NCBI GenBank assembly: GCA_013297875.1
Contig: JAAFIW010000003.1
Span: forward strand, 124,001 to 188,000
From: Comamonadaceae bacterium
GTDB lineage: Bacteria; Pseudomonadota; Gammaproteobacteria; Burkholderiales; Burkholderiaceae_C
Reading direction: 5' to 3'
Length of the DNA stretch: 64,000 nucleotides
Part shown: positions 58,228-64,000 of the stretch, one piece after another
Layout of the letters: each line of letters opens with the position of its first letter
Numbering within the stretch: position 1 is the first letter of the stretch
Position numbers and translations under genes: made by a program
The notes under the pieces: model-generated
The model's database searches: none
Told to the model about the DNA's origin: nothing
Seen by the model: the letters and a program-made list of their open reading frames with translations, nothing else

Positions 58228-59148
58228 TCAAGGCAACTTCCAGCTGTGGGCCTCATCCTGCGCCTGCACCTTGTCGCAGCACCACGCATACAGCGCGTCG
58301 TACAGTGGCATGGCCGCTTGCAACATCGCGTGGTCGTTGGCATGCAGACGCGACAAGCCCAGCGACATCGCCAGCAAACCAGCCGACTGCGCCGCCAAGT
58401 CCAGCCGGTCGGTATCGGCCCCGCGCACGATGCGGGCCAACAAATCCAGCGCCGGGTGCGTCAGTTCAAAGCCGCCCAGCAAAGCATCAAAGCTGCACAA
58501 GTCACCCGCGTGCGACACCGATGCGCCGGGAATGTCATAGGCCACGGCGTTCAGTCGTTGCGCCTCAGCAAACACCTGCGGCGTGGGCGCGTAGAAAAAC
58601 TGCGCGCGCGGGTAGATGAAACGGCTGATCAACCAGGGGCAGGCAATGCGGTCAATCTTGGGCCGCTCGCGCGTGATCCAGCGCGAAGCCTGCTCGCCCG
58701 TCACACCCCAGTCCGGCCGTTTGGCGATCGTGAGCACCGGCTGCGCCCGCCACTGCGCGAGGTGCTCGGGCGCATCCACACCGTCCTGCCCGCCCTCAAT
58801 GCCGCCCTCCAGCGCATAGGCGTCCCAGCCCGCAGCACGCAACTGCGCCACCGCATCGGCACTCACGTTGTGGCCATACACGCAATACACCACCACCTAG
58901 CGCGGCGGCTGGCTGGTTGCAAAAGCGGACACATCTTCAGGTTTGCAGCGCTGCGCGGTTGCCACGAACCGCGCGCTTTGCGCGAATTTCTCCTCGCGCC
59001 GCACATCCAACACCAGCGGCGCATCGCTGCGACCCAAGCGCAGGTTCAGCGCGTGAGGCGAGATGGAAAAAGGAGACGGAATGACATGTGCAGTTGAGGT
59101 GTCCACGGGAATACTCCAAGTCGAGTTACCAGCGCTTGGACGGGACAC
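58228..59148 (-). pseudogene. chrB: Chromate resistance protein ChrB with rhodanese domain, interrupted by an amber codon
   Basis: Two contiguous in-frame pieces. The N-terminal piece (59148-58897) ends LVLDVRREEKFAQSARFVATAQRCKPEDVSAFATSQPPR then TAG. The frame resumes at once with VVVYCVYGHNVSADAVAQLRAAG, containing the rhodanese loop Cys, then the ChrB part (ITRERPKIDRIACPWLISRFIYP). Homologues read straight through, with a glutamate or glutamine at the stop, so one base change explains the lesion. GTG at 58896 could restart translation and yield the ChrB part with a truncated rhodanese domain, leaving partial function possible. Confidence 0.85.
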
Positions 59149-59207
59149 CGTCTATCTGTGAAGCAGAAGTTTCAAGATTCGGGAGGCTGCGATCCCGATG
59201 GCTCAGA

Positions 59208-59804
59208 TCATAGCCGCTGAAACTTAAACACCGCCGTGCTCGCCCTTGCATTCGGCGCAAAGCGCACCTCCTGTCCATCCTGCAGACCAAACGCATCAAG
59301 CACCTGCAACTGGTTTTGCGCGGCCAGGGCGGCGAAATCGTTGAAGGTGCCGACGCGGATGTTGGGGGTGTCGTACCACTGGTAGGGCAGGCGTTTGGTG
59401 ACCGGCATGCGGCCTTTCAACACGCTCAGGCGGTTGGGCCAGTGCGCGAAGTTGGGGAAGGCGACGATGCCGACTTTGCCGACGCGGGCGGTTTCAACCA
59501 GCATGGTTTGGGCGTTGCGCAGGTGTTGCAGGGTGTCGATTTGCAGCACCACGTCAAAGCTGTTGTCTTCAAAAATCGCCAGGCCGTCTTCCAGGTTGAG
59601 TTGCAGCACGTTCACGCCGCGCTGCACACAGGCCAGCACGCCCGCATCGGCAATCTCCACACCGTAGCCGGTGCAGCCGCGCTGGGTTTGCAGCAGGGCC
59701 AACAGGGCACCGTCGCCGCAGCCGAGGTCGAGCACGCGCGCGCCTTCGGGCACCAGGCGGGCAATGGCGTCCAGATGGGCTGAGTTAGGTGTCAAATCGG
59801 TCAT
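59208..59804 (-). CDS. metW: Methionine biosynthesis protein MetW
   Basis: A 198-residue class I methyltransferase-fold protein: [17 protein letters not shown] (SAM motif), [23 protein letters not shown], then [66 protein letters not shown], the MetW hallmark. MetW partners with MetX to make it fully active in proteobacteria. Its ATG overlaps the metX stop (ATGA). Confidence 0.95.
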
Positions 59805-60931
59805 GAGCCCAGAGATTCATTGCTCAAGCAGCTATTGAAATAGGAGCGAACCAGGTTCATATAGCGCGCATCGTCCAGCAGAAAAGCGTCGTGTCCGTGG
59901 GGTGCGTCGATCTGCGCGTAGGCCACGTCGCGGCGGTTGTCCAGCAGGGCTTTGACGATTTCGCGGCTGCGCGCCGGGGCAAAGCGCCAGTCGGTGGTGA
60001 AGCTGACCAACAGGAACCTGGCGGTGGCCCGCGCCAGGGCTTGGGACAGGTTGCCGCCGTAGGCGCGCGCGGGGTCGAAGTAGTCCAGCGCGCGGGTGAT
60101 CAAGAGGTAGGTGTTGGCATCAAAGTACTCGGCGAATTTGTCGCCCTGGTAGCGCAGGTAGCTTTCGATCTGGAATTCCACATCTTGGGTCGTGTAGCTG
60201 AGATCAATACCGTTTTTGAGCTGCCGGCCAAACTTCTCGTTCATCACATCGTCGCTCAAATACGTGATGTGCCCCACCATGCGCGCAATGCGCAGGCCGC
60301 GCTTGGGCACCACGCCGTGCTGGTAGAAATGGCCGCCATGAAAGTCGGGGTCGGTGGCAATGGCGCGGCGGGCCACTTCGTTGAAGGCGATGTTTTCGGC
60401 GGTGAGGTTGGGCGCGCTGGCCACCACCACGGCATGCCGCACACGCTCTGGAAACTGTAGCGTCCAACTCAGGGCTTGCATGCCGCCCAGGCTGCCGCCC
60501 ATCACAGCGGCCAGCACCTCGATGCCCAGCGCGTCGAGCAACAGGGCCTGGGCGTTGACCCAGTCTTCGACCGTGACGACCGGGAAGTCAGCGCCATAGA
60601 CCCGGCCGGTTTCGGGGTTCACATGCATGGGCCCGGTGGAGCCAAAACACGAGCCCAGGTTGTTCACGCCGATCACGAAAAAGCGGTTGGTGTCCACCGG
60701 CTTGCCGGGGCCAATCATGTTGTCCCACCAGCCTTCGGATTTGTCCTGCCCCTCATACACGCCCGCTACGTGGTGCGAGGCGTTCAGTGCGTGGCAGACC
60801 AGCACGGCGTTGGACTTGGCGGCGTTCAGCGTGCCGTAGGTTTCATAGGTCAGGTCGTAGCCCGCCAGGCGCGCGCCGCTTTGCAGCGCCAGCGGCGAGG
60901 CAAAGTGCATGGACTGTGGCGTTGCGAACAT
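59801..60931 (-). CDS. metX: Homoserine O-acyltransferase MetX
   Basis: A 376-residue alpha/beta hydrolase-fold acyltransferase. [12 protein letters not shown] and the nucleophile elbow [13 protein letters not shown] with Ser are visible, as are [17 protein letters not shown] (Asp) and [11 protein letters not shown] (His). It acylates homoserine (succinyl-CoA in the MetW-associated group) in the first step of methionine synthesis. Its C-terminal [13 protein letters not shown] and TGA are encoded by a dispersed-element copy. A terminator hairpin ends right at the ATG and a SAM-II-like riboswitch lies before it. Confidence 0.95.
59807..59851 (-). repeat. Dispersed element copy 16, metX 3' end
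   Basis: Reverse strand: TCGCTCCTATTTCAATAGCT then GCTTGAGCAATGAATCTCTGGGCT. It encodes the last residues of MetX. Confidence 0.9.
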
Positions 60932-60968
60932 AAAAAAACCCGGTGTCGCTAAAAACGAGACCGGGTTT
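60932..60968 (-). terminator. Leader terminator of metX
   Basis: On the minus strand AAACCCGGT (60968-60960) pairs with ACCGGGTTT (60944-60936), followed by a T-run that reaches the metX ATG. Its position after the riboswitch suggests transcription attenuation. Confidence 0.85.
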
Positions 60969-60984
60969 CGATGGAAACAAGGCA

Positions 60985-61036
60985 GGTCTTTAGCAGAATT
61001 TATTGAGCGCCCGCAAGCTGAAAGCAAATCGGCGCT
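60985..61036 (-). promoter_or_regulatory. SAM-II-like riboswitch upstream of metX
   Basis: On the minus strand AGCGCC (61036-61031) pairs with GGCGCT to form P1, with GATTT directly after the first arm, CTTGCGG before the second, then CAATAAAT and TGCTAAAG. This order matches the SAM-II pseudoknot (P1, A/U-rich triplex loop, GCUAAA closing pairs). SAM-II controls metX in alphaproteobacteria and some betaproteobacteria. When SAM is abundant, expression should fall. Confidence 0.82.
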
Positions 61037-61084
61037 ATGGGTAAAAGTATAGCGGCTAGCCCAGGAAACACCTGGGCGGAATGG

Positions 61085-61552
61085 CTACTTTGTGCCAAAC
61101 AGGCGTGGCACCACCAGCGCGTCCAGCGACCACTTGCCCGGTCCAAACACCGCCAGACCGGCCAGCAGCGCACCCCAGAACACGTGCTGCTGCATCGCGG
61201 CCGGTGGAATATCGGCCAGCGCAATCACCGCCACGGCGTTGACCACGAACAGGCCCAGGGCTGCGAAGCGTCCGCCCAAGCCCAGCACCAGCAGCACAGG
61301 CAACACCAACTCGCCTGCGGTGCCCGAGAAAGCGGCCAGTTGCGGCGACAGCAGCGGCACTTTGTATTCATCGGTGAACAGCGCCACGGTGGTGCCCCAG
61401 TCGCGCAGCTTGGTCAGGCCCGACAGGAAGAAAACTTGGGCCACGTACAGCCGCGCCAACAGCAAGGCCAGGGGTTGTAGTGCATCGAGCAGGCGGCTGA
61501 ACAACGCCCATAGGTTCACGCCGCGTTGAAAAAGGCTGGGTTTTGATTTCAT
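61085..61552 (-). CDS. DoxX-family membrane protein (HvfD-like)
   Basis: A 155-residue protein with four helices: LALLLARLYVAQVFFLSGLTKLRDWGTT is the DoxX start, and AALGLFVVNAVAVIALADIPPAAMQQHVFWGALLAGLAVFGPG the end. It completes the cluster DUF692-DUF2063-DoxX on the same strand, which in other bacteria is HvfBCD/BufBC-DoxX, linked to RiPP metallophores. Its exact role there is unknown; DoxX proteins often work with thiol or quinone redox. The intergenic gap to hvfC is 80 bp. Confidence 0.9.
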   Translation of the reverse strand: MKSKPSLFQRGVNLWALFSRLLDALQPLALLLARLYVAQVFFLSGLTKLRDWGTTVALFTDEYKVPLLSPQLAAFSGTAGELVLPVLLVLGLGGRFAALGLFVVNAVAVIALADIPPAAMQQHVFWGALLAGLAVFGPGKWSLDALVVPRLFGTK

Positions 61553-61632
61553 GGTGAAGGCTCCTCGGGCGGGTTGTTGTAAGACAGGTTATCAGGGATC
61601 CGCCAGGTACTTCGGCCCCAAAGGCGCTGAGG

Positions 61633-62556
61633 TTACACAGCCTTGGCACCCACCACCAGGCCACTGCGCACGGCTGGCGCAAACCAGTCCTGAAAGTCCA
61701 GGCGCGGCGCGGCAGCCAGGGCTTCTAGCAGATTGGCACCTGATTGCAGGGCTGCAATCAGGCGCATCTCACCCACCTGGGCCACACGCAGTTGCGGCTT
61801 CATGCCTTGCCGCCAGATCAAGGCAGTTTCAGCCACACCGTCGCGCAGCAGTTGCCCGGCCTGGGCCATCGTGACCGCATCCGCAGAAGGCTCTAGCGCA
61901 AGATCCACCGGGCCATCAGCCAGGTGCGCCGCCACCGTCGCCCGTTCGGTGATGACACCGTCTGCAGGCGCAGGGCTGCCGCTTGCTGCGGTGGTGGTAC
62001 CGGCAGGTTGCAAATGGGCCAGCACAATCGTGACCACCGGGTAGGGGCTGACCACGCAGGCGGCACCCGGGCTCAACTGCAGGAAAACGCCCGCCGGGTC
62101 GCGCTCGGCCAGCAGCGACAGCGATGCCAGATCCAGCACGGCATCTGCCGCGCTACTGGCCAGGTGCAGCGCCCACTCCACGCGCGCCACATCGCTCAAA
62201 TAAGGCTCCTGCTCCAGCAAACCTGGCAGCATGGCCATGTGGTCTGCCAACTGCCCGCCCCACTGCGCCAAATCGCCGCGCACCGGCGGGTGGTCGTGCC
62301 AGTGTTGGCGGGCCATGGCTTCAAAATTGTCTTCGCCCACCAACTGATGCACCACCGGATAAGCGCCGGCCAGCGCACGTGGTGCCAGCGCCTGCGCATT
62401 GGCGCGGTAGGCGCTGAGGCCGCGCTCCATGAGTTTTTCGCCTCTAGCCCCTTCAGATAGAGCTCGGGTAGCTATTGAATGAATAGCATCTACCTGTCTG
62501 GGTGCCCACAAAGCCGCCAGCAGGGCGTGCTGGTCATCCACCAAGCCTTGGCTCAT
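61633..62556 (-). CDS. DUF2063 protein (HvfC/BufC-like partner) with repeat segment
   Basis: A 307-residue protein whose N-terminal DUF2063 domain contains RGLSAYRANAQALAPRALAGAYPVVHQLVGEDNFEAMARQHWHDHPPVRGDLAQWGGQLADHM. It is the RiPP recognition partner of MNIO enzymes. A segment close to the start (VDAIHSIATRALSEGARG) is encoded by an inverted dispersed-element copy. Its ATG overlaps the hvfB stop (ATGA), so the two are coupled. The C-terminal half is more variable. Confidence 0.88.
   Translation of the reverse strand: MSQGLVDDQHALLAALWAPRQVDAIHSIATRALSEGARGEKLMERGLSAYRANAQALAPRALAGAYPVVHQLVGEDNFEAMARQHWHDHPPVRGDLAQWGGQLADHMAMLPGLLEQEPYLSDVARVEWALHLASSAADAVLDLASLSLLAERDPAGVFLQLSPGAACVVSPYPVVTIVLAHLQPAGTTTAASGSPAPADGVITERATVAAHLADGPVDLALEPSADAVTMAQAGQLLRDGVAETALIWRQGMKPQLRVAQVGEMRLIAALQSGANLLEALAAAPRLDFQDWFAPAVRSGLVVGAKAV
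62441..62491 (-). repeat. Dispersed element copy 17, inside hvfC
   Basis: Reverse strand: GCTATTCATTCAATAGCTAC then CCGAGCTCTATCTGAAGGGGCT. Diverged in its right half, in frame with hvfC. Confidence 0.65.
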
Positions 62557-63506
62557 GCAGACACCTGCGTCCAGTTTTGCAGCGCAATGCTGGCGTGCTC
62601 GCGCGCCAGATCGGCCTGCCCCAGCAGCACGTCCAGCGCGGGAATGTCGGTGTCCCATTCCACCAGGGTGGGCACCGGGCCAAAGCGGGAGATGGCATGG
62701 CGGTAGATCAGCCAGACCGGGTCGGCCACCGTGCGGCTGTGGTCGTCCACCACGATGTCGTCCATCGCGCAGTGGCCCGCCACATGAATCTGCCCGACCG
62801 CCGCAGGGGCCAGTTGGTCCAGCCAGGCACAGCAGCTTCGCACCGGGTCGTCGGTAGCACCGGCCAGGCGGGCATTCAAGGCATTCACATACAGGTTGTT
62901 CACGTCCACCAGCAGCTGGCCACCGGTGCGCTGCACCAGAGAGGACAAAAACTCGGTCTCTGGCATGTCGCTGGAAGCAAACCCGACGTAGGCCGACAGG
63001 TTTTCAATCAGCAGCGCGCGCTCCAGCCGCTCCTGCACGCGGTGCACATTGCTACACAACACGTCCAGCGCTTCGCGGTTGAATGGCAGGGGCAACAGGT
63101 CGGCCGCATGCACCGTAGCGGGCTCGGCGGTGTCACGCACATGCGCGGCCAGCACGCCGCGCGCAAAACAGGCGTGGTCGCTCACGCGCACGGGTTGAAT
63201 CTGCTTGACCAGGCGCGCCAATTGCGTGAGGTGCCAATCGTCCACACCGCAGGCGGAACCCAGGCCCAAACCCACGCCGTGCAGACTCACCGGCCACTGC
63301 TCGCGCGCTTGTTTCAGCACCGACAAGGCCGCGCCACCCTGGCCGAAAAAATTCTCGGAATGCACCTCAATGAAGTCGAGGTACGGAAACTCCGGTGAGC
63401 CCACCGGCGCGTGCGCGCGCTGCATCAGCTCTCCGTAATGCGGATGCCGCCAGCCAATGCCGGTCTGGTTGGCGCGAACATGAGGGGCAGGTACACGTCG
63501 GTTCAT
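62553..63506 (-). CDS. DUF692/MNIO family enzyme (HvfB/BufB-like)
   Basis: A 317-residue TIM-barrel protein with the MNIO iron ligands: GIGWRHPHYGEL, FIEVHSENFFG, VSLHGVGLGLGS, RVSDHACFA, IENLSAYV, LLVDVNNLYVNA, IHVAGHC and LVEWDTDIP. MNIOs oxidise cysteines in precursor peptides, for example to oxazolone-thioamides or other metal-binding forms. In the usual operon a DUF2282 precursor (HvfA/BufA) precedes this gene. Here the 157 bp before its start hold only frames of under ten codons. Upstream is a TlpA-like gene instead. Confidence 0.92.
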   Translation of the reverse strand: MNRRVPAPHVRANQTGIGWRHPHYGELMQRAHAPVGSPEFPYLDFIEVHSENFFGQGGAALSVLKQAREQWPVSLHGVGLGLGSACGVDDWHLTQLARLVKQIQPVRVSDHACFARGVLAAHVRDTAEPATVHAADLLPLPFNREALDVLCSNVHRVQERLERALLIENLSAYVGFASSDMPETEFLSSLVQRTGGQLLVDVNNLYVNALNARLAGATDDPVRSCCAWLDQLAPAAVGQIHVAGHCAMDDIVVDDHSRTVADPVWLIYRHAISRFGPVPTLVEWDTDIPALDVLLGQADLAREHASIALQNWTQVSA

Positions 63507-63663
63507 GAGCGCCTAGCCATTTTCGTTCGCAGAAGCAGCGAGCACATTTGCATCTATTTGAAACTCATGAAAAATACGGTAAAACTCCGCGAATGACGGG
63601 GTAGTTTACAAAACGGCGATGGCGTGCATGTGTTGGCACCGATCAGAGTGACCACAGGTCTCT
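63507..63663. other. Gap upstream of hvfB with no precursor gene
   Basis: Searched on both strands for a small Cys-rich peptide of the DUF2282 type; none found. The only short frames are MHAIAVL and MSFK on the minus strand and MKNTVKLRE on the plus strand. Confidence 0.6.
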
Positions 63664-64000
63664 TTAAATCAGCTCGGCAATCTTGTCCCACGCCTCGGCC
63701 GGGATGCGGCCCATGAAGCGCTCGACCACCTTGCCGGTTTTGTCAATCAGCAGGGCAGTGGGCAGTTGTGCGGGAACACCGACGTTGTCCGCGTAGCGCG
63801 GTTCGCCCGCCCACAGCTGAACAAAGCGCTGCTTGATCGGAACTGTGCTGGAGATAATTTTTTCGTAGTCATCCAGGTCTTTAACGCGCTTGTCGTGGCT
63901 GACCAGCACCAGTTCAAACGGCTTGCCGGCCCAGCCTTCGTAGTTTTGCCGCAACTCCGGCATTTTGTCGCGGCACACCGCGCAGTTGGTGGACCAAAAC
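63664..64000 (-). CDS. TlpA-like thioredoxin-family protein (5' end outside the window)
   Basis: At least 111 C-terminal residues are visible. The active site FWSTNCAVCRDKMPEL (CxxC) lies at the window edge, and the cis-Pro is in QLPTALLIDKTGKVVERFMG. TlpA/ResA proteins reduce disulfides in the periplasm, for example in cytochrome or metal-centre maturation. Any signal peptide would be upstream of the window. It is co-directional with the hvfBC-doxX genes, and the 157-bp gap leaves operon membership open. Confidence 0.9.
   Translation of the reverse strand, partial: FWSTNCAVCRDKMPELRQNYEGWAGKPFELVLVSHDKRVKDLDDYEKIISSTVPIKQRFVQLWAGEPRYADNVGVPAQLPTALLIDKTGKVVERFMGRIPAEAWDKIAELI

Follow-up and report, generated by a model that had tools for sequence, protein, structure and literature searches.

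The metX leader studied here, from a member of the Comamonadaceae, combines an aptamer of SAM-II appearance with an intrinsic terminator that runs up to the start codon. This raises the question of how such an aptamer could control such a terminator. The window analysed is a stretch of 64,000 nucleotides, and the metX leader extends from position 61039 to 60929 on its minus strand. A first-pass annotation had named the elements of a SAM-II leader at 60932-61036 without giving a strand; all of these elements were identified, on the minus strand. Their order there is AGCGCC, GATTTG, CTTTCAGC, TTGCG, GGCGCT, C, AATAAAT, TCT, GCTAAAGAC, a 17-nt linker, the hairpin, T7 and ATG. The features of the locus are as follows.

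61046-61051, minus strand: possible -10 hexamer TATACT, just 5' of the aptamer (sequence reading; weak)
60983-61039, minus strand: SAM-II-type aptamer, matched by a model built from relatives (69.7 bits, E 4.1e-20; RF00521 26.7 bits, below its cut-off)
61031-61036, minus strand: P1 5' strand AGCGCC, pairing with 61006-61011
61025-61030, minus strand: GATTTG loop strand, invariant among 70 relatives (the search pattern behind 48 of the 70 rows demanded GATTTG)
61017-61019, minus strand: pseudoknot P2 5' strand AGC, pairing with GCT at 60992-60994
61011-61017, minus strand: CTTGCGG (sequence reading)
61006-61011, minus strand: P1 3' strand GGCGCT (sequence reading, fold and alignment of relatives)
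60998-61004, minus strand: AATAAAT, between P1 and the P2 3' strand (sequence reading, alignment)
60988-60994, minus strand: GCTAAAG (sequence reading)
60986-60994, minus strand: GCTAAAGAC, the P2 3' strand and proposed antiterminator 5' strand (complementarity, covariation, predicted folds)
60965-60978, minus strand: GTTTC-CATC-GAAAC, inner hairpin of the proposed antiterminator (predicted folds of the nascent RNA)
60936-60968, minus strand: intrinsic terminator hairpin (-20.0 kcal/mol, z -5.08)
60948-60956, minus strand: GTTTTTAGC, terminator top, 9-bp complement of 60986-60994 including one to two G-U pairs (sequence, predicted folds)
60932-60938, minus strand: U-run of seven, touching the metX AUG (sequence reading)
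59801-60931, minus strand: metX, 376 aa, NCBIfam homoserine O-succinyltransferase MetX (NF047916, 664.7 bits, cut-off 560)
59208-59804, minus strand: metW, overlapping the metX stop (TIGR02081, 235 bits, cut-off 189.5)

The two genes probably form a metXW operon. A strict consensus promoter scan of 60000-64000 identified no promoter. The strong hairpin with a T-run reaching the ATG, as described in the first-pass annotation, was recovered, and none of 200 shuffles folded as well; for the fold of the whole leader (z -2.85), one of 200 shuffles was as good. The first three T of the run lie inside the hairpin. The ATG (60931-60929) follows directly on the seventh T, which agrees with the earlier remark that no Shine-Dalgarno sequence lies between the T-run and the start codon. 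Further along the strand, the chrB-b RNA motif RF03086 (46.2 bits, cut-off 36.5) was identified at 59129-59198 (minus strand), just upstream of an open reading frame with a GTG at 59148.

The covariance search with the Rfam SAM-II model, suggested together with the first description, gave a divided result: RF00521 (SAM_alpha) matches the leader with 26.7 bits and an E-value of 2e-4, but remains below its gathering score of 36. At gathering threshold no SAM family was identified in the window, and RF01726 reached 12.7 bits on the leader against a cut-off of 44. The missed cut-off is a matter of the score threshold and no trait of the RNA. Among 60 genomes, comprising the own genome and relatives, 30 contain an RF00521 match at E<=0.001, the own genome not being one of them, and 8 pass the cut-off; within the same family, the cut-off is passed in 6 of 36 genomes. 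A clade model of 58 positions was built from 70 related aptamers with the window left out, these being the first 70 of 95 thinned aptamers (alignment A1), all from leaders with a terminator. For 48 of the 70 rows the core was prescribed by the search pattern, so that its invariance partly reflects how the rows were chosen; match length and gene context are free of this effect. This model gave the score listed above for the window aptamer, the next best match in the window having 11.7 bits, and bore out the description of the leader as SAM-II-like. In the whole genome it found this single match (next best 18.4 bits), and in the genomes of the family it found matches at E<=0.01 in 278 of 299. 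This suggests, by comparison with the 6 of 36 genomes above, that the Rfam cut-off misses many members in this family, so that annotation may under-report control of methionine synthesis by SAM there.

The structural traits and the gene context of the class are present in the window: a P1 stem closing a loop with GAUUU and UUGC, an H-type pseudoknot P2 in which the loop AGC pairs with the GCU of GCUAAA, and a position upstream of the methionine genes metX and metW. In the 70 relatives, 94.1% of the P1 and P2 cells are paired, above all 500 shuffles. The signal stems from the outer P1 pair, which covaries (AU 29, CG 10, UG 8, GC 3, UA 3, GU 1, other 16); four of the other five P1 pairs never vary, and one P1/P2 pair is changed on both sides, a number equal to that in the shuffles. 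For P2 (AGC/GCU), 90% of the cells are paired and no pair is changed on both sides; by its sequence, the pseudoknot is conserved, not proven by covariation. Homology places the leader among the SAM-II riboswitches, a known class, in the metXZ form of beta-proteobacteria; as such it would be expected to bind SAM and to discriminate against SAH.

Several other observations were made during these searches. RF02278, a toxic small RNA, gave 16.9 bits (cut-off 50) on the terminator and was rejected as a chance similarity of terminators. Matches to RF02424 (Burkholderia sRNA Bp2_287) lie on the reverse strand of leaders that combine SAM-II with a terminator, namely at 60933-61062 (plus strand) in the window and in L146, L088, L047, G051 and G020. 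All RF02424 matches seen are below its cut-off, and three of six in one search coincide with leaders of the present set. In its printed consensus, RF02424 resembles a leader of this kind in reverse complement, and the family may represent a mis-stranded metX-type leader. In 11 of 251 leaders (L039, L042, L047, L055, L073, L074, L084, L088, L117, L122, L146) the first core is followed, at a distance of up to 320 nt, by another SAM-II/V-like core; an Rfam search at E<=0.05 on nine loci, five of these eleven among them, identified no second element. Tandem SAM-II arrangements are known in print (PMC9481103, available text).

For the comparison of leaders, 80 further loci from among the clade-model matches listed were taken in addition to the 30 loci given. 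Four of the first 148 loci (L009, L027, L028, L029) did not match the core expression and were dropped; L028 is without the GATTT core. Later loci include weak matches from the own genome (L150-L156). Duplicates were merged, and the window is represented by L149 in the resulting set of 251 leaders, 170 of which have metX downstream. A looser hairpin scan set a hairpin in 128 of 149 leaders, some of them mis-set, and a stricter one, which was used, in 119 of 149. In 209 of the 251 distinct leaders a strict terminator begins at most 75 nt after GCUAAA, and 203 remained after removal of duplicates. A terminator behind SAM-II is common, and one is expected at this locus. As control served 506 other terminators, which were collected in the flanks of the same loci instead of genome-wide. 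The metX-only covariation and the tests of the GATTTG and AAAT segments used a draw of 200; the motif count, the tests of the P2 strand and regions 3/4 on 203 leaders and the test on pairs of relatives used all 506.

The step from aptamer to terminator is indicated by the P2 3' strand. In the window, this strand, GCUAAAGAC, can form 9 bp with GUUUUUAGC of the terminator. The motif [CU]UUU[AG]GC, the complement of GCUAAAG, was found in 36 of 119 leader terminators and in 9 of the 506 others. When the strand (GCUAAA plus three nucleotides) was paired with the 5' half of its own terminator, p<=0.05 against the generic terminators was reached in 105 of the 203 leaders. When the variable part was thinned so that identity stayed below 65%, the 5% level was passed by 12 of 25 representatives; clustering of the whole leader at 72% identity left 15 representatives, five of them at p<=0.05. 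Against shuffled strands, 39% of the 119 leaders reach p<=0.05. An exchange of terminators among leaders hardly lowers the pairing (the own terminator is within the best 5% for 6% of the 119 leaders, with the window at rank 0.44), which is a weak control because the terminators share the motif. Pairing of -4.0 kcal/mol or weaker was found in seven of the 119 leaders (L011, L035, L083, L094, L108, L124, L138), in some of which the hairpin had been placed too near to leave much of the strand.

The pairs flanking the motif covary. In the 89 of 209 leaders that contain it (63 distinct combinations), positions +1, +2 and +3 are paired in 90, 67 and 68% of cases, against 78, 40 and 46% after permutation (p at most 0.0002), and positions +4 and +6 gave no covariation. 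The pairs are G-C, G-U, A-U, U-A and C-G at +1, mainly A-U and C-G at +2, and C-G, G-C and G-U at +3. Within the metX leaders alone the first two pairs stay significant, while +3 and +4 do not. These permutations ignore kinship, which is corrected in part by a test on disjoint pairs of nearest relatives among the metX leaders, used because the 72% clustering left too few leaders for covariation. Of 72 such pairs 57 were informative; the own combination won in 30 and lost in 12 (sign p 0.008), with 15 ties. With GCUAAA plus six nucleotides alone the result was marginal (29 to 16, sign p 0.07). About half of the 203 leaders, judged by their sequences, have unusually strong pairing between P2 strand and terminator together with covariation, and the other aptamer segments have little or none. 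In a few leaders, GCUAAA is followed by a GAGA-type sequence (L011, L035 and L094, also L031 and L098). In the first three, GAGAAAU and AUUUCUC can form a hairpin; its competitor would be P2 and not the terminator, and it possibly represents another switching scheme.

At a probability of roughly three in four, we read the leader as a metXZ-type SAM-II riboswitch which attenuates transcription and so represses metXW, by means of an antiterminator made by the P2 strand. Without SAM, GCUAAAGAC would pair during transcription with GUUUUUAGC in the nascent terminator, and the enclosed GUUUC/GAAAC and GCC/GGU pairs would hold the terminator 5' arm, so that polymerase could pass the U-run. With SAM, the pseudoknot would hold GCUAAAG, the antiterminator could not start, and the terminator would fold and stop transcription just before the AUG. 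The most likely outcome of the switch is that metX transcription is stopped when SAM is plentiful. Attenuation of transcription in a betaproteobacterium, as the first-pass annotation had suggested, is supported as the likely mode by the terminator and the conserved antiterminator pairing; the antiterminator itself goes beyond that description, as does the fit of the terminator near the AUG to a published dual-platform definition.

The order of folding, like termination in the cell, enters this scheme as a prediction. For the nascent RNA of the window, the predicted minimum is not yet the antiterminator at 85 nt, but is the antiterminator at 94, 97, 101, 103 and 106 nt, where GUUUC/GAAAC and GCC/GGU pairs bury the terminator 5' arm within it; the GAAAC of the inner hairpin overlaps this arm. 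At 111 nt the terminator is lower by 0.8 kcal/mol (-33.8 versus -33.0). To imitate the SAM-bound state, P1 was forced and the loop and P2 strand were blocked; the terminator then formed at 103 nt and beyond, in a folding model that contains neither pseudoknot energies nor kinetics. Over the 203 leaders, the mean predicted probability of pairing between the P2 strand and terminator sequence is 0.74 for the own sequence, 0.44 with shuffled strands, 0.63 with only the linker shuffled and 0.63 with swapped hairpins. It is at least 0.5 in 165 leaders, 132 of which also have the 5' arm engaged at 0.5 or more, and below 0.5 in 38. For the window, the corresponding values are 0.998, 0.25 (whole strand shuffled), 0.98 and 0.61, and engagement of the 5' arm is 0.68 for the own sequence, 0.31 with shuffled strands, 0.48 with shuffled linker and 0.50 with swapped hairpins. 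Since pairing of the strand stays at 0.98 when the linker is shuffled and GCUAAA is kept, the linker appears to matter for the 5' arm and not for the strand itself. An aptamer strand complementary to the terminator, with two competing folds, as in a terminator/antiterminator switch, was thus found at the level of sequence and predicted folds.

Another coupling of a SAM-II aptamer to its terminator was put forward as speculation in the available text of Leyn 2014 (PMC4239095), in which regions 3 and 4, the GC-rich strands of the aptamer, bind one of the terminator arms. CGGG/CCCG complementarity of this kind is present in the window, and regions 3/4 reach p<=0.05 against the terminator 5' half in 18 of 203 leaders, a slight excess over the about 10 expected. 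This is far weaker than the signal of the P2 strand (105 of 203), the 3' arm gives none (1 of 203), and the predicted nascent folds of the window leave P1 intact; a route through these regions is therefore improbable. The remaining segments behave likewise: p<=0.05 is reached by the GATTTG segment in 1%, by the AAAT segment in 7% and by the P2 strand against the 3' arm in 3% of leaders. Less improbable, yet still unlikely, is a terminator that is constitutive or set by a factor other than SAM, with the aptamer acting mainly on translation or RNA stability. A precedent is the metA gene of S. meliloti, where a terminator lies behind a SAM-II aptamer and, in the part of the study available (PMC9373788), the authors were unable to predict a riboswitch-driven antiterminator. 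In the window, however, no Shine-Dalgarno sequence with a nearby AUG lies in or beside the aptamer, and the complementarity of the P2 strand to the terminator is conserved and covarying.

The least probable alternative, to which we give very little weight, is control of translation only, the terminator-like hairpin being a stem that blocks the ribosome site. It was considered on 132 terminator-bearing metX leaders whose gene begins with ATG, the start being set as the first in-frame ATG after the hairpin; a few of 59 short-gap starts may be wrong under this rule, and the short-gap starts are probably real because many of the proteins begin with MSFIATPQ or similar. The ATG lies at most 12 nt from the hairpin in 47 of the 132, named members including Variovorax (L070, L106), Rhodoferax (L095) and also Thauera (L083). 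In favour of a blocking stem, none of these 47 has a Shine-Dalgarno sequence of -4 kcal/mol or better in the gap, compared to 39 of the other 85, and GGGT lies within 18 nt of the ATG in 44 of the 47. The value of 0 of 47 is partly built in, as the gap is too short to hold much, and for the final 20 nt, counting those of the hairpin, both groups have a median anti-Shine-Dalgarno pairing of -3.2. Against a purely translational role, the hairpin is followed by a long U-run, and the feature common to the leaders is the terminator, because 85 leaders have it further from the ATG, 39 of them with such a Shine-Dalgarno sequence in the gap. In some leaders without a terminator (L040, L105, L116), the ATG is placed a few bases after GCUAAAGAG, and there, by its position in the sequence, the P2 strand may serve as ribosome site.

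Under the attenuation scheme with the P2-strand antiterminator, a translational effect would come in addition. The hairpin ends 4 nt before the AUG, which itself adjoins the U-run, and its 3' arm contains the best Shine-Dalgarno-like bases (GGGU); poor translation would therefore be expected of readthrough RNA once it has refolded into this hairpin. According to the available text of Barrick and Breaker 2007, a dual platform has its terminator hairpin within 10 nt of the start codon, which includes the window with its 4 nt. A wider reading, favoured with less confidence than that for the window itself, is that across beta- and some gamma-proteobacteria the invariant SAM-II strand GCUAAAG doubles as antiterminator and terminators have evolved its complement in their own top. 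In a metX lineage including Variovorax and Rhodoferax, the terminator would have slid onto the start codon, so that one hairpin would shut off both transcription and translation, and the metXZ element would be SAM-II.

The consulted parts of the literature differ on how SAM-II acts. The statement of the first-pass annotation that most SAM-II switches are thought to act near the ribosome site agrees with a 2024 review (PMC10907184), which treats SAM-II as a direct-occlusion riboswitch, and disagrees with the 2007 survey of Barrick and Breaker, in which terminators are the commonest mode in alpha- and beta-proteobacteria; its surprise at a terminator is justified only partly. SAM-II with terminators has been described by Corbino 2005 (PMC1273637), by Barrick and Breaker 2007 and in the S. 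meliloti study (PMC9373788), as far as these texts were available. How SAM-II controls a terminator was not experimentally established according to Barrick and Breaker 2007, and the antiterminator was left as speculation by Leyn 2014; from what is available of both, the P2-strand antiterminator would offer a testable answer. In the SAM-II antiterminator literature seen, which includes accessible text of PMC9373788, PMC2258182, PMC10907184 and PMC4239095 and leaves subscription papers mostly outside, none formed from the P2 strand was found. SAM-II with a terminator and the metXZ leader class are already known, and the specific P2-strand antiterminator proposed from the sequences appears new within that literature. 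The present assignment would bring together SAM-II and the metXZ element, which were published separately.

The closest known system is the metXZ element, and Leyn 2014 was the only report found, in the literature searched, on metXZ or metXW together with a riboswitch. By its text and figure legend, which were the basis of comparison in place of the Figure S2 alignment, the element occurs in most beta-proteobacteria studied there, and was published without being called SAM-II. It shares with the window the metXW/metZ genes, the taxa and a pseudoknot followed by a terminator; it forms its pseudoknot between regions 1 and 4 and regions 2 and 6, in a single copy per genome. On the same basis, the pseudoknot regions, the terminator, the position before metX or metZ and the beta-proteobacterial source were all found in the window. 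The difference lies in the interpretation, since Leyn 2014 describes a novel element apart from SAM_alpha with another, speculative antiterminator, whereas the window has a SAM-II match and a proposed P2-strand antiterminator. With SAM_alpha (RF00521), as described in the accessible text of Corbino 2005, the window has in common P1, the P2 pseudoknot, GAUUU, the GCUAAA core, the methionine genes and the terminators present in many members; unlike that family, it scores below the Rfam cut-off and its terminator touches the AUG. The SAM-II riboswitch of S. meliloti metZ, with the sRNA RZ, is predicted in the available part of PMC9373788 to terminate on binding of SAM and to leave a short leader RNA, as proposed for the window, but belongs to an alpha-proteobacterium. 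The tandem SAM-II/SAM-V arrangement, according to the text seen of PMC9481103, likewise places SAM-II on transcription and a second layer on translation. It uses two aptamers for this purpose, whereas the window would manage with one, its terminator also covering the ribosome site.
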